Of a stretch of 64,000 nucleotides of DNA, positions 52,298-64,000 are shown piece after piece. The translations under genes were made by a program, and so were the position numbers. Origin of the DNA: Margaritispora aquatica. Lineage: Eukaryota > Ascomycota > Leotiomycetes > Helotiales > Discinellaceae. The notes beneath the pieces were generated by a model. That model ran no database searches. It worked only from the letters and a program-made list of their open reading frames with translations, and was not told the DNA's origin. The DNA lies in contig VJWN01000020.1 of NCBI GenBank assembly GCA_007644065.1, positions 487,874 through 551,873 of the forward strand. The letters are read 5' to 3'. How positions within the stretch are numbered: position 1 is the stretch's first letter; every line of letters begins with the position of its first letter.

Positions 52298-55200
52298 TTT
52301 GATGTTGATGTGATATTGGGTTTGAAGTCAATTAAGATGAAGTGATTTGTTGATTTGTTGATTTGTTTGTTGTAAAGAAACGAGAGTCAAGATCCCAGAG
52401 AGATCAGGAGATGTTGGTTGAGATGATTGAAAAATACCTAGAAAGAACGATAGGTCGAAAGTTTGAAATGGGAAGGAAGGAAGAGGGAAAGGGTGGCCCT
52501 TTTGTCGTGGACGTCCAAGGTCGAAGGTCGTATTGTGTATTGTGACGGAACGAACGAGTGGCGATGTGATGATTATTAAAGAACGAAGGTGGAATGAGAA
52601 AAATCAAGGACAGGGCAAACGTGTGTTCAAGTATGAGGAGAGAAGTTATTTATGGAAGGGTAGGTAATACTTTTGGTAGTCCATACTGTAGGTAGTTAAA
52701 CTTTGCACACTTTGCACACTTTGCACACGCACTACTTGCATGTCCCATGTCCCATGTCCCATGTTGTCTTGTGTGTGGTTTGTACCTGATCCAGATCCTA
52801 GGGTAGGTGGGTAGGTGGGTAGGTGGAGAGAGGAGAGGAGAGGAGAGGAGAGGGTCCATGGAAGGAAAAGAGTGGAGGTAAAACCTTTAGTTTGCTTTTT
52901 CGTCTCTTGTCTCTCGACTCTTGCTTGACTCTTGACCTGGTTGTCTTTGGTTGTCTTGTCCTGTCCTATCCTGTCCTGTCCTGTCCTGTCCTACCATATC
53001 CAACCATCCATCCATCCATCCATCCATTCATTCATTCATTCTTCTGCAAGGCAGGCAGGTAGTGTTTTTCTTGCTCGAACCCCCCGTCCGATAGGACATG
53101 CACTCTCCCCTCGCACATCCATAGAATCCATACCTCCATACCTTCATCCCATCCCATCCCTTATCCATACGAATAATCCACATGCATATCCACATTCATC
53201 CCATCCGTCGCTCACGCTTATCCTCTTGTGATCCAATTGCCAAGTGTGAAATATCCACAAACATCCACAAACATCCACAAACATCCACCGACAGCCACCA
53301 ACAGCCACCAACATCTTCAAGCGGAAACCCAAACAAATGGATCTCATGTCCTCTCCATCCAATGAATCTCTCTCATCTCTCATCTCTCTTCCCGCCCAGG
53401 GGTAAATCTGGGGGTGACGTCTTTTTCGTTGCTCTTTCCCTGCTCTTCCCCTGCACCATCCATCTGAAGTTCTTTCTTTCCAGCTTTCCAACTTTCCTTC
53501 TTTTTCGAAGGGTTTGGTTCCTGCATTAGAGGAAGACTTCTACTCCCTAAGGTATTGTCTATTGTCCAAGCGAGAAATCCAAAATATTGTTGAGTCTTTT
53601 TGCTTTGTCATCATCTTCGTTCGTGTTTGCTACCTTGTCCTTTCTAAGTTTGGTTTGCATTAATCAATTAATTGATTACTTACTTACTCTACTATTCGGA
53701 AATATCAACACATCCACTTGACTCTTCTATTTCGGTTCGTTGGCTTGGGTCGGGTCCGGTCTCATGATAATCTCGTATTGTGGATGTTGCCCCATCTTGC
53801 CCATCTTGTCCAAAATCATGCATGGATACGAGGCTTCTTTCTAGGGGGAGGGGGGGGCAACCCCCCCCGTCGGAACTACCGGTTGGTTGAGAGTGAGAAT
53901 GAGAAAGATGAGAGAAAGAAAATCAGGGTCTCGCACACCCACGGCCACGGCGACACTGCCACTGCTGCCACTGCCACTGCCACCGATCATGGTGTGTGCG
54001 TTGTGAACTGGTGCTGCCACCATCGATCAATTCAGGACGAGTGGTAAGTGGTGGGTGGTTCAGTCGTGGCCCACGAGAACTCAAAACAGACCAACGGCTC
54101 AGAGAAACTCAGGGGAAATGAATGAATGGGAGTGGAGTGCACGTGCAAAGAAACCTAGAAACCTAGAAACCTAGAAACCTGCCCAGCACCTAGACTAGAC
54201 ACTGGACACTAGGCAGTGGAGAGCCATCCATTCCATCCATTCCTTTGCATTGTGTTGCCGCGTGCCTTGGTAAAGATGTCACGGATGCCAAAGAACAGCC
54301 GTTGATTGTTCGACAAGTTCGAGACCTGCACCTGTTTGGCCCCTGTTCTGCCCTGCCTTGGCCTTGCTGCTCGGTCATTGTCAATTTCGAAATTCCATCA
54401 TCATTTGAACAATAAGGAAAGTAAACAATAAACAACACGCCCAAGACACAAGACACCACACACCATTCACAATTCACTTTTCACAATTCCGGCAATTCCA
54501 TCATTTTCTATCGTTGCACGAGTGATCGAGTTTGGTATGCGTTGCATTTGTTGTGTTATTTACATTACTACCTACTTTGCCCATTTTCTTGCTCATCCCT
54601 CACTTTTGCTTCTTCCACAGCATATTGCACATGAAACTCCGCTGATCCACGCCTTCCCCGTGTCCTTGGCATCTCGATCGTGGATTGGACAATCCTCAGG
54701 CGTCTGTTTGTCTGTTGGTCTGTTTGTGACGAGTTGTACAGGCAAACATAAGCTATGCTGGAATTGAAACACCAGGTCGAAATTCTAGTCGGTCTCTGCC
54801 TAGTCGGTCATGAACACAGCCATCTTTCTCCGTCACATCCTGCTGTTGGTTGACGACCTCTCAAGCAAATTCACATTCACATTCACATGTGTTTGGTAAC
54901 GGCTTGCCTCCGAATGTCTCTGAGTGAGATGATTCCTTTTCCCGTTCCTCAAATTCTTCGAGAGGAGAAAATATCGGGTGGCGCGAAGATCACCCGTGGG
55001 TTTCAAAGCCACCATTCCAGGGAGTGGTCAAGGACTTCCGATCTGATACATACAAGTAAACAATGTGATGAGCACCAAAGTCAGAGGCCAGGTTCTTGAT
55101 GAGCAGTCATTGGATATTAGTAACATGAGATGAGAAATAGTTGTTCTCCTATGTCTAATTCGATACAATTGTATTGTGCACCGTCTGGATGGTCATGTTC

Positions 55201-56065
55201 TCTTGCTTTTCTTTGTCACGATAAAGTCTTGTGTGCTTCTCCATGTCATCTTCTCCTTCTTTAAAATTCCAGTCCGTTGTCTTCAGGATTTCGGGCTATG
55301 GGATGACGACGCCTCCTCTTCTTCTTTGTCTTTCGAGTTCACGGTCATCGAGGAAGGTAGGTATGGAGACGATACATACGTGTTTGCTTGAACGTTCAAC
55401 CAGTCCTGTCAGCATCGAAGTCCAATAAACCTTGACATCTCTCAAAAGATATTCTGGAAGTATTTATTGGATTATTGCCACCTGCTCCAGCCTCTCAATG
55501 ATCAGCATCAACATGCCCATATTTTGGTGTGCTCGAATCATCACGTGATTCAAAACCTCGAACTGATTTTCGGATATATACATCCGTGACTTTTTGAAAG
55601 TTGGGTGACCAAGAGCATCAGATATCTATCTCATCATACATACTTTAAGGTAGCCTTGTTGAGAAATCTATCGGCAAATCCTGTTCTAAGTACTGCATCG
55701 GTGTTGGTTTTCAAAGCCTTTGCTTGAAAGTTGTGGTGCCAAGATCCAGCAAGCATCAAAAGCAATACGCCTCTCGGCTATTTCAATGGAATCGACCATG
55801 TTCATTGGTTCAAAACACCGTCTGGGCTGATTCTGAAGCCCAAATGGCATCAAAACTTCCACTTTCGTCCATGTGCCGCGGGTGACCGCTGTTTATAGGA
55901 TGCCCATTTTCAGCCGCACCCCAAATCTGCCACAAAGTCTGCCACCACCATGCCAAAGACAAAGTCCCGACCCGATGTCCGTGCTGTCAAAGACAGAGAC
56001 GACATCTACAACTTTATCCTCATCTTCTGCCGTTATTCATAGTGTCTCCCCCCCCATTTTGAATT
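52298..56065. other. 3.8-kb gene-free region with stacked microsatellites
   Basis: No supported gene on either strand. It lies between the diverging GH17 and Pro/Gln-rich genes. It contains tandem tracts of GGTAGGTG and GAGAG (52801-52853), CCTGT (52950-52992), CATC and CATT (53004-53042), ATCCACAAAC (53252-53288) and CTAGAAAC (54150-54182). Much of it could be long leader or promoter for the large gene at 56066. A C-rich run precedes that start directly. Confidence 0.5.
52801..53288. repeat. Cluster of tandem microsatellites
   Basis: At least five different short motifs (GGTAGGTG, GAGAG, CCTGT, CATC/CATT and ATCCACAAAC) are each tandemly repeated within 490 bp. Their motifs differ, so this is not one amplified unit. 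Confidence 0.8.
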
Positions 56066-59000
56066 ATGGCGTACACTTTACCACCGGGATGGGATTCGGA
56101 TTATGATGGCGCGACAGAAAAATGGTTTTTTGTACACCGACCGTCTGGTTTCACTCAGGCACAGTTTCCCAAGGCCGGGGATGAGTTGGTCAAATCGGGT
56201 CAACCGGTAGAGATGGCACAACCTCAACCCAAACCTCCTCTGGCGAAGGATGTGTTGTCTGGAAAGATAGATACAATGGCGATGAATTTAGAGCAGCAGC
56301 GAGCGACGCCCGCACCAGATCCCAATGCCGGACCCCACCAGTTTACGCCTCAATATCAGAGCTATCAACCTCCAGTGGTGTCACAGGCTGCATCATATCA
56401 GGCGCAACCGAGCTATCAAACAAATCAACAGGGATTTAACCCATCTCAGGCTAACTCATCACAACATTCAACGGGAGCTCCTCCTCCTCATCAGCAGCAG
56501 CAGCAGCAGCAATCTAGTTATACACAGTCACCAACTTTCCAGCAGCCTTCATCACATTATACAGCATATCAGTATCCGTCGACCCAACCACCTCAAGCCA
56601 ATACTGCACCACAGGTTCGTTCAGCTAGTGGTGGACAACAGTACTTACCATATTCCGCTAAGCCAACAGCCAACCAGGTTATTCGGCGCAAACCAACAGG
56701 ATCATCGCAAACTCAACGGAAAAGTGTATCAAGCCCGGTCACTTCCCCGGCTCCTCAAACGCCCATTTACCAAGTCCAACAGCAAGACTGGAAGCCACAA
56801 CCACTTGGAACTCCGTCATTGCAACAATCAGAGGGTAGACACGCTTCCACTCATGCACCACCATCGCAGTTCGCTGAGCAGCTTTATCCATCACAATCAG
56901 CAGTGTCTAATAATGGGCATCAATCTGAACAATTTCATCAAGCATCTCAACCTAACCAAAATTACCAGCCATATCAACCACCAACTGTGCAGGGAGGACC
57001 ACAAGCTGGTCAAACCACCCAGAATGCACATGAAAGAAAAGACTCGGTATCGAGTTCCTATCAGGCCTATCAGCCCCCAGGAAGTAATGATCCTCAAACA
57101 CTTACCCAGAACCAAAACATTGCATCATCACACGCGCCTGGGGTAGGGAACTCTGGGCCTAATACTCCTCAAGCTTATCCCATGGAACCGCTTCACGAAG
57201 AGCAAAGAATGCCTTCGGTAGAGCCCAGTCACTCAACACCAGAGACTAATGTTGGTTTATTGTCACAGGCAAGTCAGCAAGCTGGGCAACAAGATTCGCC
57301 TGCTGTGATGCCTTCGAGCCTGGCAACCTCGCAAAGCCCACCGCCACAACAACCGAACGGCTCATCTCAAGATACTCAAGAGGGCTTAAAGAAACCAGAG
57401 CCATATCAAGCTCACAGTGGCAGCGATAACAGCGAGCAGCATGCACAGCCTGTACTCACCCAATCAAGTCTGCCCTCAACCTCTGCTGCAAACGTAAGTC
57501 ACCTTCCGAGTCAGGTGTCAGGTCACGATGTTAGTTCGGTGCCTCAAGATCCTCGGACAACTACTGCACATCAAACTCCAGTTCAGACTTTACCAGAAAA
57601 CAGACGATTCTCTACTGTGTCAGCTACGTCTCGGCCAATGAGCACTTATTCTCCTGTCAATACTCCAAGTCCCATTCAAAACGCTCAATATCCACCACCA
57701 GCATATCCCAGTAGTAATCAACCTCAAAGCCAAACCCCTCAAGCTGCCGGCATTCAAAATCCAGCGAGTCCTCAAAACTCGCAGCCTCAATTTGTACCAC
57801 CACCTCCTCAGCAAGCCCAAGCATCAGCCAGTCCTCAGAATGTGCATCCTCCCTTCACACAACCACCTGCTCAGAATTATCAAGCGGCGCAAACTTCTCA
57901 AGGTTCCCTGCCTCAATCCATGTCACCCCATCAGAACATGCAACATAATCAAACTCAAGCTAGTCCTTCAAACCAACAGCCACAGTTCATGTCGTCACCG
58001 CCTCAAAACAACCAAGGCATCAATGCTTCAAGTCCTCAGAATATGCAACCACAGTATATACCACCTCCTACTCAATACGGCCAAGCTGGTGTTAGCATGG
58101 GTAACCCACAGACTATGCAGCCTCAATTCGCACAGCAACAGCAGCAGCACAATATTCAAGCGAATCAAGCGCAACAACCGAATGCCATGCCACCCCCGCA
58201 GCACATGCAGCCTCAAACCCAACCCCAATATCTCTCTCACCCAAGCACATCACAAGCCAGCCAAGGCTCTCATCTGTCCCGAGCTCAGTCTGGTCCCGCT
58301 TCGTCAACGTTCGCTCAGCTCATGGCGCAAGATCATGTTATTGTGAACTCAGGGCTGCCACAACATGGTCAGCAAGCAGGTAGTCAGAACCCACAACTGC
58401 AACAGACCCAGCAGGGTCAGTACAAACCTCAAGGGGCTCAACCAAATATGCAATTCCAGCAACCAGTTCAAGGCTACAATCCATCTGCTCTCGGTGCGAT
58501 GAAAGCCCCCGCTGCTCCAGATCCTAACCGAATTCAATCTTTTCAAGCACAATACGCCGGTCCTCCTCCCAACCCTTCATCCCTTCCACCCATAGGTTCC
58601 ACTCGCCCAGGACTCATCAATCGCTGGTCCATGACAGCACTGTCATCCTCCAAGAAGGGATTTGAAAAAAGTAAAGACTGGATGAAGAAGAATCCAATGG
58701 GCACTATGGCTATGGCTGGTGGTCTTGGCGTTGTCGCTGGTGCGTGTGGTGTACCTGTGAATAATGCTGCGATGGCGGGAAGAGCGTATAACCAACATCA
58801 AGCTAGCAAGGCAAGAATTGCACAAGGTCAAGCTGGTAGGGGAAGAGGTGCGCCGGCAGGGGGCATGAGTGAGGCTGCTATGCAAGCTGCTATCCAGAAG
58901 GGTATCCAGGCGGGAATTGCACAGGCTATGATGGCTCAGAATGGTGGGATGCAACAAGCTGGACGAGGTATGCCGATGCAAGCTGGACGGGGCATGCCCA

Positions 59001-61687
59001 TGCAAGCTGGGAGAGGTATGGTACCTGGGCAACAGATGAATGCTCAATTTCAGCAGCAGTTCGCTGGTCAACCAGGTGTCGTTCAACCTGGTCAGATGAA
59101 TGCTCAAGCATTTCAAGCGCAGCAGCAAAACATGCAATTTGCACAACAAGCACAAGTACAGGCACAAGGCGCAAATCCTGCATTACAAGCTCCAGGGCGT
59201 CCTCAGTCCCAGTACTTTGGTCAGCCGGGTCAAGTACCTGCTCAAGGCACCCAGCAATTTGTCCAGAACCAACAGGGACAGCCTGTATATCAACAAATTC
59301 CTGGAGCTCCAAGTCAAGTTGCACAAGGCGAGCAAAACCCTTCTCTGATCAGCCAGATTGGAGGCATGATTCCACCGCAAGGTACTGCGCAATCACCTCC
59401 AGCACAATACGCTCAGAATCCTCCACCAGCCCAAAGTGGCGAGCCCTCAATGGTTAGTCAAGTAGCGGGAACTGTCCTACAGCAGGGAATTCAGATGGCC
59501 CAAGGTCAAAACACACAATCCGCTCCTCCACCACCACAAGCATATCAAAACCCACCTCCTCAAAATATCCAAGGGCAGCAAAATCCCTCGCTAATCAGCC
59601 AACTTGGGGGGGTGATTCCACCGCAAGGTGCCGCTAGTGCGCAACCACCTCCAGCACAATATGCTCAGAATCCTCCACCAACTCAAAACAATGACCCAGC
59701 CTCTCTTAACCCACCACCAGGAAGCCTCCCACAACAAGGAAGTCAGCAGGTGTCGCAAGGTCAAAACATACAAACCCCTCCTCCTCCACCACAACCGCTG
59801 CAAACCCCACCGCCGCAAAATGCACCAGCACAACAGAACCCCTCACTGATAAGCCAGATTGGGGGAATGCTACCGCAAGGTAGTAACCAGCCTGCTCAAC
59901 CGCAGTATGCACAAGCACCGCCTCCTCAAAATGCACCAGCACAGCAAAATCCCTCGCTACTGAGCCAGGTTGGAGGAATGCTACCACAAGCCAGTACCCA
60001 ACCTGCTCAACCACAATACACACAAGCACCACCTCCTCAAAATGCACCAGCACAGCAAAATCCCTCACTACTAAGCCAGGTTGGAGGAATGCTACCACAA
60101 GGCAGTACCCAACCTGCTCAACCGCAATACGCACAAGCGCCACCTCCTCAAGCCCACGAACCGTCCAAGCTCGGGCAATTAGCTGGGAAGTTACTTCAAT
60201 CTCAACAACAGCGTCCACAAAGCCAATATATGAACCCTCCACCACAGCAAGCATCTTACCAAACCCATTCTGAACCCCAAGGACCATCAAAGATCACTCA
60301 AATAGCCGGGAAGTTACTCCAATCTCACCAACAACGGCCACAGAGTCAATATATGAACCCTCCACAACAACAAACATCATACCATACTCAACCTCAATCC
60401 CATGAACCGTCAATGATGAGTCAAATTTCAAATCTCATGCCTCACCAACAGCACGCAACGCAGCAGCCGCAAACGCAACACACCCAATCACAATACCCAC
60501 CACATGCCCAGCAGGACCAGGAACCATCACTGATAAGTCAGATGTCGGGTCTCATGTCCTCTCCACAAGGATCCCACCAGCAACAACAGCAGCAGACACA
60601 GTACACGCCACAAGCTCAACCAGCACAATATCAAAACCAGCCTCAGTCACAAGAGCCCTCACTCCTCACACAGCTGAATCAAATGTCGAGCATGATGCCA
60701 CCGCAACAATCTCAACACCAGACACAACATATGCCTGTGCAGCAGCAACAGCAGCAGCAGCAATCATTCGCTTCCGCGCCGGCAGAAGAACAACCTCGCG
60801 GTGCTGACCCCTCCCTTTTCGGAGGAGAGAATCAATCCACCGCTACCGGCTCAGGCGCTCCAGCTGATTATGGCGCGGGTGGAACCGGTGTCCCAGCCGA
60901 TTATGGTGCAGGTGGAACTGGTGGCCCAGTTGATTACGGCTACGCAGCAGAGAGCGGAGTAGGCGGCGGCGGAGGATACGTATATGATCCCACAGCCGGT
61001 TACACGGACCCAGCAACCACACTGGCTTCCATACAAGCCCAGCAGGAAGCGGCCGTACAAGCGGCGTTCCAGGCGCAGACGGATCAGAACGTGGTTGGGT
61101 TGTGGGACACCACGCCTGCGACCACCACGACGACAACGACGTATGATTACAGCGGGTGAGTCTTTGTTTTCTTTCTCGTGAGCGAGATGTTATGTATAAG
61201 GAAGCTAACGTTAAGCAGTGGAACGACGTATTATGACCCCAACGCTGGGTACGGCTATGATTATGGCGCTGGTGCTGGCGCGGGCGAATCGGAAGCCGCG
61301 ACGCAAGCGAGGCTCGATATGCAGGCCCAGGGCGAGGCGAACTCGATGAGCCTGATTGACGATACGCAGTATACCGTTGGATCAAACGGGTATGTCTCTC
61401 CTCCCTCTCTCTACCCGCCCTACCCTTGGCCCCTCTCCCTTTCCCCTTCGAAAACCCAACCCTATCCACCCTACAGGACACAAGCTAACAAAGAGAGCAG
61501 TGAAATCGTCTCCACAGGCGCAGGAGGGTGGCAGGCAGATTACGGCGGCGATCCTACCGCTGCCCAGTTCGATATGCAGGCCCAGGGTGAGGCGAATGCT
61601 ATGAGTCTTATTGATGATACCCAGTATGAGGTTACGTATGATGATGGGGGTGGTGGGTTTGAGGAGATTGGGTTTGGGTTAATTTGA
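56066..61687 (+). CDS. Very large Pro/Gln-rich protein with WW-like N-terminus
   Basis: Three exons, 56066-61155, 61219-61389 and 61501-61687, give 1,815 residues. Residues 4-37 (Leu-Pro-Pro-Gly-Trp-Asp, then Lys-Trp-Phe-Phe-Val-His) resemble a WW domain, which binds Pro-rich peptides; the usual second tryptophan is replaced by Gln-Ala-Gln-Phe-Pro. Residues 40-830 are Gln/Pro/Ser/Asn-rich and prion-like. A short non-repetitive island near 850-930 has Asn-Arg-Trp-Ser-Met-Thr, a Lys-Lys-Gly-Phe-Glu-Lys helix and a Gly/Ala/Met hydrophobic stretch. Residues 950-1,600 carry repeated Asn-Pro-Ser-Leu-Ile/Leu-Ser-Gln units, three of them in 111-bp tandem copies. The C-terminus is Gly/Tyr/Asp-rich. 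Exons 2 and 3 each encode Asp-Met-Gln-Ala-Gln-Gly-Glu-Ala-Asn, evidence of exon duplication. A scaffold or phase-separating role is inference. Confidence 0.8.
59810..60142 (+). repeat. Three tandem 111-bp coding repeats
   Basis: Units start at about 59810, 59921 and 60032. Each encodes 37 residues centred on Asn-Pro-Ser-Leu-Leu/Ile-Ser-Gln-Val/Ile-Gly-Gly-Met-Leu-Pro-Gln. The second and third are nearly identical at DNA level, which points to recent duplication. Confidence 0.9.
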
Positions 61688-61955
61688 TTTGATTTGATTT
61701 GACTTTTGACTTTGAGGAAGGGGTGGTGAGAGGAGAGGAGGGAAAGGGAGGGTAACTGGTAGAGTATTGGGTATAGCTCCCATTGTACATATATCATCTA
61801 TTGATTTAATACTGAAGACTATCATCTATCATCTGTCGTCTACCGTCTGCTGCATATCAAGTATTCCCCCTCCTTATCGATTCTTCCTCACCATGACGGA
61901 CGTCCTATCTTCGCTCTTTCTTACTTTCCCCATCTCCACCTCACTTCCCTCACGC

Positions 61956-62434
61956 TCACATAACGCTACAATAACTCTTGGACCCACTAGCGGTTTTCTC
62001 CCTCTTCCCTAGCATCTCCATATCTCTCTCATTCACTCCATCCTTTGCGCGGATGATGATGTCGTCTATTGCGTTTGGTGCTGCGTCTGCTTTTGCTTCT
62101 GCGACTGCGACTGGTGCGGCGAGGGGGACGCGAGCAACGAGTCCGATGGTGGGTTCTTGAGCGTTCGGAGTCGGAGTCGGGGCGCCGTGGATGGCGAGGG
62201 CCGAGGCGCTGGACGGCAAGGGGGCGTTAGTTGTGTGTTTTCATTTTGGGGGTGGGGAGGCGGAGGATGGGGAGGGGGAGGGAGAGAGGGATGGAGGGAG
62301 GGGGATGATGGGGTAGTTGGTGGATGATGGGATGGGATGGGATAAGATGAGATGAGATAAGATGAGATCGATAAGACAAGAAGGGAAGGGAAGACTAACA
62401 GGACAGAAGAAGCGATGAAAGTGGAAGACTTCAT
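61956..62434 (-). CDS. Hybrid (h-type)-like pheromone precursor with CaaX box
   Basis: Two exons, 62434-62400 and 62208-61956, flank a 191-nt intron with GTTAGT donor, ACTAAC branch site and GTCCAG acceptor; the product is 95 residues. The N-terminus (hydrophobic from residue 5 to 17, Ala-Ser-Ala-Leu-Ala) looks like a signal peptide. Residues 20-79 are Ala/Pro/Val- then Asp/Ile/Arg-rich. Lys80-Arg81 is a Kex2-type site, followed by Glu-Lys-Thr-Ala-Ser-Gly-Ser-Lys-Ser-Tyr and then Cys-Ser-Val-Met at the exact C-terminus, a farnesylation-type CaaX box; this is the only cysteine. Lipopeptide a-type fungal pheromones end in CaaX and alpha-type ones are cut by Kex2. Both together match the hybrid class reported in Trichoderma, with Cys-Thr/Ser-Val-Met ends. 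A second gene with the same ending begins 1.5 kb away. Alternative: an unrelated prenylated small protein. Confidence 0.65.
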
Positions 62435-63900
62435 GGTGTTGGTTGGGATAGGGAGGTATTGTTGGTGTTGGTGATGGTATTGATATTGATAAGCGTAAGA
62501 TACCCTAGGAATCGCAAGTGATGAAGCGGGTGGGGTGGTGAAATAATGGTGAAGTGATGATTTTGTCTTGGTATTTAGATGGCGGTTCCGTAATATGAGA
62601 GGGGAGTGGAATGTTCTTAAATACTCCCTTTCTACTCGTACTGTGCTGTGCCATTGATGCTGGTGGCTGACATATTCTTCGACCGAGATGGTGATAATCT
62701 GACCAGTTCTGTTGAGGTATTGACAATGGTTAAGCTGTATGCATGGGCGATCATGTCATTGATGCTAAATCTGGAAGTAGATAATCAATGGATGGATGGA
62801 TAGATGGATGAACGCTTGCGTGCCGAGGAAATGCTTTCTGGCCCCAATCAGTCGACAACATTCCTGTTTAGAGTACTGGGGTTCTGGACTTGCGGTGTTG
62901 TGTGGTATGGCACCATTGACCTATGAGGAAAGCACTTGAGAGGATTATTGAGGAGGGGGCCGTATCTCTACCCAAACCACACCATACAAATCACAAACAA
63001 ACCATCCTCCTTCCTTCCTCCCTTCCTTCCTGTTTTCGCTTTCGGATCTTCCTCCCACTTCCCACGGTCCGTTCCTAGCCTACCTACCTACCTACCCACC
63101 AATTCCAAAATCTCAAATCCCGTACCGCGTGCGCGAACCCTCATACCTACTAAGCCACATCAATATATCCCTCTAAATTAAGACACGCTAAGCGAACGTT
63201 GCCGAAATATAAGGGGGCGAGGTGATGATTCATCACTTGGCGTGTCGTGGTAACTAAGGTAAGCCCCTACGTGATTTTTCTCTCGTTGGGTGGGGCGTTT
63301 GAGTTTAGGTAATCGCACTTTCGTGTATAAGCGAGATTTCTGGGGTGCGTTGCATCGTTGTGATGGTGAGGGTGAGGGTGAGGGTGATAGTGGCTGTTGT
63401 GGAGCGTTGGTGGGATTTCATTGTTCCGTTCGTGGGTTTGCTTCAGTGGGTGTTGTCAGGTAGGTACTGTTGTGGTGTATCACTTGTTTGACGATCAAGG
63501 GAATACGGAGGGGTGGGTGTAGGTGGGTGTCGATCAAGAGGTGAGGTGGGTTTTGAGTAAATGATGCGTGGTGTGGATGTATGGTGAGAGGAAAGGGTCA
63601 AAAAGGGGAGGTGGTTTTGAGGTTGTAGGATTGTGCGTTTGGTTGACAGGTTGTGAGGGTTGGCTATAGAGTTGGATTGTGGTGAAAGAATTCTATGAGG
63701 GGACAAAACCGAGGCGCAAGAACTATTGTAAAGAGACTCAAGGGTAGAAATTGATGTACAGATTCAATGAGGTAGTTTTGAAACATTCCATTTACATCTT
63801 CTACACATGTCACTCCCTCTCCATCACCTACCCACAAACTACAAACTCCCCTCGCCAACTCTCAACGAAAAAACCTCCTCGCAATCAAACCCAGCCTACT
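62435..63900. other. Spacer between the two CaaX genes
   Basis: About 1.5 kb without a supported gene. It holds the upstream region of the 95-residue precursor and the 3' flank of the next one. GATGGATG units (62788-62806), CTACCTAC (63078-63096) and GGTGAG units (63364-63390) are present. Confidence 0.4.
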
Positions 63901-64000
63901 CTACATGACAGTACAATAATAGGTTCCTTTAGAAGCTTGATCTCTCTTCTGCACCTCCTTCGCCTCCTTCTTCTCCAACACCTCCACCTCGCTCTTCTTC
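63901..64000 (-). CDS. Second CaaX pheromone-precursor-like gene, 5' part beyond the window
   Basis: The last 100 bases on the minus strand are open to the window edge and encode the final 32 residues of a protein, stop at 63901-63903. The segment is Lys/Glu-rich, then Gln-Lys-Arg (a Kex2-type site), then Asp-Gln-Ala-Ser-Lys-Gly-Thr-Tyr-Tyr and a terminal Cys-Thr-Val-Met. The order of Lys-Arg, a spacer of nine or ten residues ending in Tyr, then Cys-Ser/Thr-Val-Met is the same as in the complete gene at 61956-62434. It is truncated by the window edge, so the N-terminus and intron content are not visible. Very probably a tandem paralogue. Confidence 0.6.
   Translation of the reverse strand, partial: KKSEVEVLEKKEAKEVQKRDQASKGTYYCTVM

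Follow-up and report, generated by a model that had tools for sequence, protein, structure and literature searches.

Four tandem genes for small precursors that pair an alpha-type leader and Kex2-type site with a Tyr-Cys-CaaX end: candidates for a-factor-like pheromones

Close to the end of the window, by which we mean the whole 64,000-nucleotide stretch of DNA analyzed here, lies a small gene, P1, that is one of four same-strand tandem paralogues, P1 to P4, found within 5.2 kb on contig C13 by a search of the fungus's own genome (42.36 Mb in 49 contigs). That these four form a real gene family is, in our judgment, nearly certain. Our best reading, to which we give an even chance, is that each of them encodes a precursor with an alpha-type leader, from which a different farnesylated a-factor-like peptide is released, most likely as a ligand of the receptor STE3. 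Taken separately, prenylation of the peptides appears probable, and on the identity of the STE3 ligand itself we are evenly balanced. What leads us to this reading is the Tyr-Cys-CaaX end, the length of the predicted peptide (10–11 residues), the combination of an alpha-type leader with Lys-Arg and the presence of both STE3 and STE2 in the genome.

P1 occupies positions 62434..61956 on the minus strand (contig C13: 550307-549829) and is predicted to yield a 95-residue product once spliced. Its first exon (62400..62434, minus), 35 nt long with the ATG at 62434, encodes MKSSTFIASSV plus two nucleotides of a Leu codon, and with it begins a signal-peptide-like leader, which is likely cleaved after residue 20, ahead of Ala21-Pro22. 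A predicted phase-2 intron of 191 nt follows (62209..62399, minus; GTTAGT...CTAAC...CAG), in which the branch-point-like CTAAC lies 22 nt from the 3' end and the donor, GTTAGT, is non-consensus and weaker than usual. The second exon (61956..62208, minus), closed by a TGA stop, carries the rest of the leader, the pro-region, Lys-Arg, the peptide and the CaaX box. Within it, the codons of Lys80-Arg81, a Kex2-type site, are at 62001..62006, those of the predicted mature peptide Glu82-Cys92 (EKTASGSKSYC, if processing runs as we suppose) at 61968..62000 and those of the farnesylation-type Cys-Ser-Val-Met with its stop at 61956..61970, all on the minus strand. The protein has a single cysteine and a single Lys-Arg pair, and it ends in SYCSVM. 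All of this agrees with a preliminary description of the locus, which had reported a spliced product of 95 residues with a secretion-type N-terminus, one cysteine, one Lys-Arg and a CSVM end; we reproduced these features and the residue numbering from the sequence, the splicing being predicted. As to the intron itself, it contains much simple CT-rich repeat, is about twice as long as the paralogues' introns and in part (within window 62209-62399) matches three other sites in the genome at 81–88%.

The paralogues lie on the same strand as P1. P2 runs from C13: 552134 to 551774; its ATG is 261 bases past the window end and the gene ends at window 63901, such that its last 100 nt (63901..64000, minus), encoding ...KKEAKEVQKRDQASKGTYYCTVM followed by a stop, are inside the window, where the preliminary description overlooked them. 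P3 (C13: 553568-553189) and P4 (C13: 555005-554640) are outside the window. Searching the genome with P1 retrieved P4 at E 1.4e-6 and P3 at E 3.5, and P2 was not retrieved by this query at E 10; it was found, as the fourth copy, by a frame scan of the contig. With P3 as the query, all four were recovered (E 9.7e-50, 1.2e-6, 0.21 and 0.59) and nothing else in the genome at E 10. The exon-intron models of all four genes are predictions, and they coincide closely: the first exon is exactly 35 nt long and a phase-2 intron interrupts the same codon in every copy. Intron lengths are 191, 100, 71 and 96 nt for P1 to P4; the donor is GTAAGT in the three paralogues of P1, and CTAAC or CTGAC is found 20–22 nt from the intron 3' end, with a second such site at 15 in P2. 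The precursors range from 86 to 102 aa, P3 being the 102-aa protein, and each contains one cysteine. Additional Lys-Arg pairs are located upstream in P3 and P4, and it is the last Lys-Arg that aligns in all four.

From this last Lys-Arg onward, the four proteins follow one plan: 10–11 residues ending in Tyr-Cys, then Ser or Thr, then Val-Met and the stop. The sequences after the final Lys-Arg are, in P1 to P4 order, EKTASGSKSYCSVM, DQASKGTYYCTVM, EKKSSSSTYYCTVM and DKLTSSGTYCSVM, with CaaX ends CSVM, CTVM, CTVM and CSVM preceded by SY, YY, YY and TY, so that Tyr stands directly ahead of Cys in each. The mature peptides predicted for them are EKTASGSKSYC, DQASKGTYYC, EKKSSSSTYYC and DKLTSSGTYC. 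In other words, the mixture of alpha-type and a-type traits that had been pointed out in P1 (secretion-type start, Kex2-type site and CaaX end) is present in all four paralogues. Loss of Lys-Arg or of the C-terminal Cys-x-x-Met in orthologues had been named in advance as evidence against the idea; both are kept in every copy here, the comparison being one among paralogues.

In the four-protein alignment, identity to P1 is 33, 37 and 51%, and 17 columns are invariant, clustered at the two ends: a start of the form MKS.T.I..S.L...L....AP and an end comprising Lys-Arg ... Ser ... Tyr-Cys-x-Val-Met. Between them lies an acidic-basic pro-region that varies in both length and sequence. We judged the leader to be signal-peptide-like from hydropathy and from the sequence itself, in which A21-P22 is invariant (4/4); the best hydrophobic 10-mers have means of 1.93–2.22 in P1 to P4, versus 1.55 in a separate 57-aa frame on contig C18 that is considered below. 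In four of the six pairs dN is smaller than dS, with ratios of about 0.26–0.49, as expected of constrained coding sequence; the other two pairs gave no dS. Since dS, at 1.5–2.4, is near saturation, the duplications are undatable. Family searches brought little: Pfam at E 0.1 gave no match for P1, P3 or P4 and one for P2 that lies under its own cut-off (E 0.02), a PDB search with the four-protein alignment gave no match at E 1 and Rfam gave none over window 55000-64000. The 700-nt upstream regions are heterogeneous. CAAAG, which the available text of PMC3068285 names as a pheromone response element, occurs there (as CAAAG or CTTTG) 0, 1, 2 and 3 times for P1, P2, P3 and P4; TATA-like boxes precede only P2, P3 and P4; the TGAAAC element is absent from all four regions, and no 8-mer is shared by all four.

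Could P1 be a chance reading frame or a mis-spliced fragment rather than a gene? Viewed by itself, P1 is a weak case: its donor is non-consensus, its intron is long and rich in simple repeat, and the tail that it carries is common. The preliminary description had held a CaaX end unlikely to arise by chance, and for a single C[ST]VM end this does not stand: the loose C[ST]VM-stop DNA pattern has 66 matches in the genome against 43 in the reversed control, and 36 of the 66 translate to CSVM- or CTVM-stop. All 36 frames were followed upstream as unspliced sequence until the first stop (35 of them by script and the one on C23 by eye), a procedure in which upstream exons could be missed, many of these frames being short. 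Tyr precedes Cys in five of the 36, namely those of P1 to P4 and one at C23:1783756, which has neither the leader pattern nor a Lys-Arg near its end; a spacing of 6–15 residues between Lys-Arg and Cys is found in four of the 36, all of them in the cluster. A search for Y-C-x-V-M-stop agrees, with seven matches (one in the reversed control), of which two are non-stops and the five true ones are again the cluster four and C23:1783756. At the other end of the gene, an exon-1 pattern has four matches in the 42.4-Mb genome, all of them cluster genes, and none in the reversed control. This pattern was derived from P1 to P4 and therefore must match those four; that it matches nowhere else in the genome, and that the leader match leads to a Y-C-[ST]-V-M stop in four of four cases, speaks against a chance frame. 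So do four paralogues that keep the intron position, the branch-point-like sites and both ends, and a dN below dS in every pair for which the comparison was computable. Judged on the sequences, a fourfold recurrence in which Tyr and Lys-Arg keep their positions excludes chance, and a spurious P1 is hardly credible.

A harder question is whether these proteins are ever farnesylated. The same 36 frames suggest that the host fungus ordinarily uses C[ST]VM as a prenylation tail: by eye, they include a frame ending in ..GGCSVM that resembles a Rho-type GTPase, as well as short or Cys-rich frames ending in ..CCTVM and ..CGCTVM. Farnesyltransferase is a cytosolic enzyme and Kex2 one of the Golgi lumen, and the former point, together with the leader, the Ala-Pro start, the acidic-basic pro-region and the Lys-Arg of all four proteins, would suit ordinary small secreted peptides that are processed by Kex2 and never farnesylated, their Tyr-Cys-x-Val-Met serving for a disulfide dimer, for receptor contact or in an effector. 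We consider this explanation unlikely, if worth real weight. It leaves unexplained why, in four of four proteins, the Cys stands precisely four residues ahead of the stop, with Met last and Tyr adjacent as in known a-factors; a disulfide or a role in receptor contact needs no fixed distance to the stop.

If the peptides are instead farnesylated ligands of STE3, how might one chain undergo both modifications? Each precursor would be completed in the cytosol before it enters the ER, which we infer because chains of 86–102 residues can enter after translation. The CxxM end would be modified on its Cys by farnesyltransferase, trimmed of its three final residues and methylated on the same Cys; the leader would bring the chain into the membrane system of ER and Golgi, and Kex2 would cut there after Lys-Arg. 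The products, farnesylated peptides of 10–11 residues, would exit by the secretory route or through a Ste6-type pump and then bind STE3 on the partner. Post-translational entry into the ER via Sec62/63 is open to short secretory proteins, as described for a metazoan system in the available text of PMC3793985, and would permit farnesylation to come first. Another possibility is that the precursors do not need the Lys-Arg, just as HPP1 does not need its Kex2 sites in what is accessible of PMC3068285. The weak joint of the scheme is that a luminal cut at Lys-Arg and a cytosolic farnesylation of the same chain are topologically awkward, and it is mainly the step at which the farnesylated tail would be presented to Kex2 that keeps the mechanism at no better than an even chance. 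The fuller proposal, that P1 to P4 represent a new architecture in which CaaX precursors with a secretory leader receive their farnesyl group ahead of, or in the course of, post-translational entry into the ER and are released by Kex2, with a tandem set giving four different peptides, we advance tentatively, as something short of an even prospect.

A pheromone requires a receptor, and the genome has both: STE3 is present as two adjacent exon matches without internal stops, and STE2 as a match that likewise lacks them. Both pheromone receptors are conserved across Ascomycota according to the accessible text of Wilson et al. (PMC10569646). Evidence from the mating-type genes themselves is thinner. 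A family search of the genome gave no match for the MAT1-1-1 alpha box, a weak negative, and the HMG family search gave six matches in five genes. Reading these by eye, we take them to be a SAM-HMG protein, a Ste11/fmf-1-like protein, a ROX1-like protein, an NHP6-like protein (in two exons) and an amine-oxidase/HMG protein; by this reading none of the five is clearly MAT1-2-1, again a weak negative. For the alpha-factor gene, the pattern CxxPGQxC has five scattered matches (six in the reversed control), all of which we read without finding any in a plausible precursor, and CxxxGQxCW has 12 scattered matches (two in the reversed control), none clustered. One of these 12, at C45:730495, was read and rejected as an alpha-factor, the match being out of frame within a longer open frame, which presumably encodes a REV1-like polymerase; the alpha-factor gene may lie among the remaining 11.

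STE3 may also have another ligand, because a frame elsewhere in the genome fits what has been described of a putative Leotiomycete a-factor. In the available text of Wilson et al., that candidate, comprising homologues of Botrytis cinerea BCIN_13g03330, is 45–64 aa long with a Ser/Thr-rich N-terminus, has a Gly-Tyr motif in 87 of at least 111 species and includes CTVM and CSVM among its listed ends (PMC10569646). At C18:259372 (minus) we find a separate 57-aa frame, MCTSS...CIECDGYECCCIPIPCTVM, ending ..CDGYECCCIPIPCTVM, which is Ser/Thr-rich at its start, contains a Gly-Tyr and closes with CTVM, and thus fits the text description of that family. Its seven cysteines may point to another kind of lipidated protein. 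A GYCxVM-stop occurs nowhere in the genome, all five true YCxVM-stop sites having been read.

Additionally, the signal may have nothing to do with mating: P1 to P4 could be prenylated peptides for hyphal fusion, self-recognition or competition, an explanation that we find improbable. That one genome is predicted to encode four distinct mature peptides would suit it, and our best reading would be simpler if the one STE3 gene had fewer ligands than four; the accessible text of two studies shows, to the contrary, that a-pheromone genes of ascomycetes may occur in several copies whose mature peptides differ (PMC10182648, PMC13037118). The Wilson candidate, whose description the 57-aa frame here fits, is not expressed in a mating-type-dependent manner in the species that those authors tested, and they themselves doubt, with reasons given, that it has a mating role (PMC10569646, available text). 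The neighborhood, read by eye, also offers something other than mating genes. Directly next to P4, frames on the minus strand (C13 about 556000-563300) resemble a highly reducing polyketide synthase, and near the peptide cluster, plus-strand frames (C13 about 566800-571000) resemble an ABC-B transporter. Ste6-type exporters are ABC-B proteins; this transporter more probably serves the polyketide cluster as its pump, a Ste6-type role being the less likely one. On the other side of P1, a long, Gln/Pro-rich and repeat-rich open frame (window 56066-61687, plus) with what looks by eye like a WW-like start converges on it; Pfam gave no match for the 1697-aa neighbor frame (56066-61159). Against a role outside mating stand the presence of STE3 and the fact that the C18 frame is the only other ligand candidate that we recognized.

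If P1 to P4 do encode STE3 ligands, what would follow? Before the work of Wilson et al., as its available text states, no a-factor gene was known from filamentous ascomycetes outside the Sordariomycetes (PMC10569646); provided that the host is not a Sordariomycete, the family would thus supply a better-founded a-factor where none was known before their candidate. Genes of this kind are easily missed because they are small and spliced, because a survey of a-factors in Ceratocystidaceae made the absence of a signal peptide a requirement (PMC13037118, accessible text) and because the list of Wilson et al. was drawn from annotated proteins of at most 100 aa (PMC10569646, accessible text), a filter that P3, at 102 aa, would fail. 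An alpha-type leader followed by a Kex2 site and a Tyr-Cys-CaaX end constitutes a concrete signature that can be searched for. The family would also pose a question for cell biology: how can the same chain be both farnesylated and cleaved by a luminal protease?

How do these precursors compare with known systems? Among titles and abstract openings of the open literature, a scope that most subscription journals lie outside, we found no pheromone precursor that combines leader, Kex2 site and CaaX box. The preliminary description had assigned P1 to the hybrid (h-type) class, and this label does not fit. With h-type precursors (Trichoderma reesei HPP1 and its Hypocreales relatives), P1 to P4 share the C[ST]VM end, and thereby the polar CaaX (CPAX) C-terminus that is one criterion of the class, as well as Kex2-type sites, which among h-type precursors occur only in T. 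reesei HPP1 and can be mutated there without loss of fertility (PMC3068285, available text). According to the same text, HPP1 is a 48-aa protein with three (L/I)GC(S/T)VM copies, one of them C-terminal, and with no predicted signal sequence, non-classical secretion being predicted instead. The defining three-copy repeat is absent from P1 to P4, each of which has one cysteine, one CaaX tail and, by hydropathy, a hydrophobic leader with an invariant A21-P22; that they are HPP1-like precursors is thus very unlikely. The BCIN_13g03330 family is likewise small with CTVM or CSVM ends, and it is set apart, by description, through its length of 45–64 aa and its usual Gly-Tyr, as against 86–102 aa and SY, YY, YY or TY in P1 to P4; in the accessible text of Wilson et al., the passages on signal peptides deal with the alpha-factor or with a MAT gene, while KEX2 goes unmentioned (PMC10569646). 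Alpha-factor precursors of the ppg1 type resemble P1 to P4 in their signal-peptide leader and Kex2-type Lys-Arg, and differ from them in having a repeated mature peptide with a C..GQ.C-type core and no CaaX end; Kex2-processed repeat proteins, so far as the available accounts go, share the same leader and site and again contain the repeated peptide that P1 to P4 lack.

A further likeness is to the a-factors of Pezizomycotina, of which the product of Neurospora mfa-1 is one precursor. P1 to P4 all have the C-terminal CaaX box and the Tyr directly ahead of its Cys, and, on the portions of the literature available, they have in common with these a-factors a Tyr-preceded CaaX, which in Cryphonectria (Mf2) and Magnaporthe takes the form of a conserved XYCY/IVM end (PMC3068285), a short mature peptide, predicted in P1 to P4 and of 7–10 aa in Ceratocystidaceae (PMC13037118), and the possibility of multiple copies, Huntiella having up to seven a-pheromone genes (PMC10182648). 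Tandem copies by themselves are thus not new. The difference is in how the peptide is presented: in the accessible texts, no signal peptide is predicted for Verticillium Ppg2 (PMC11077750), the a-factors of Ceratocystidaceae are without one (PMC13037118) and a signal peptide is mentioned in Huntiella for the alpha-factor alone (PMC10182648), whereas P1 to P4 are precursors of 86–102 aa with a leader, as judged by hydropathy, a phase-2 intron and a Lys-Arg immediately ahead of a peptide that closes like an a-factor.
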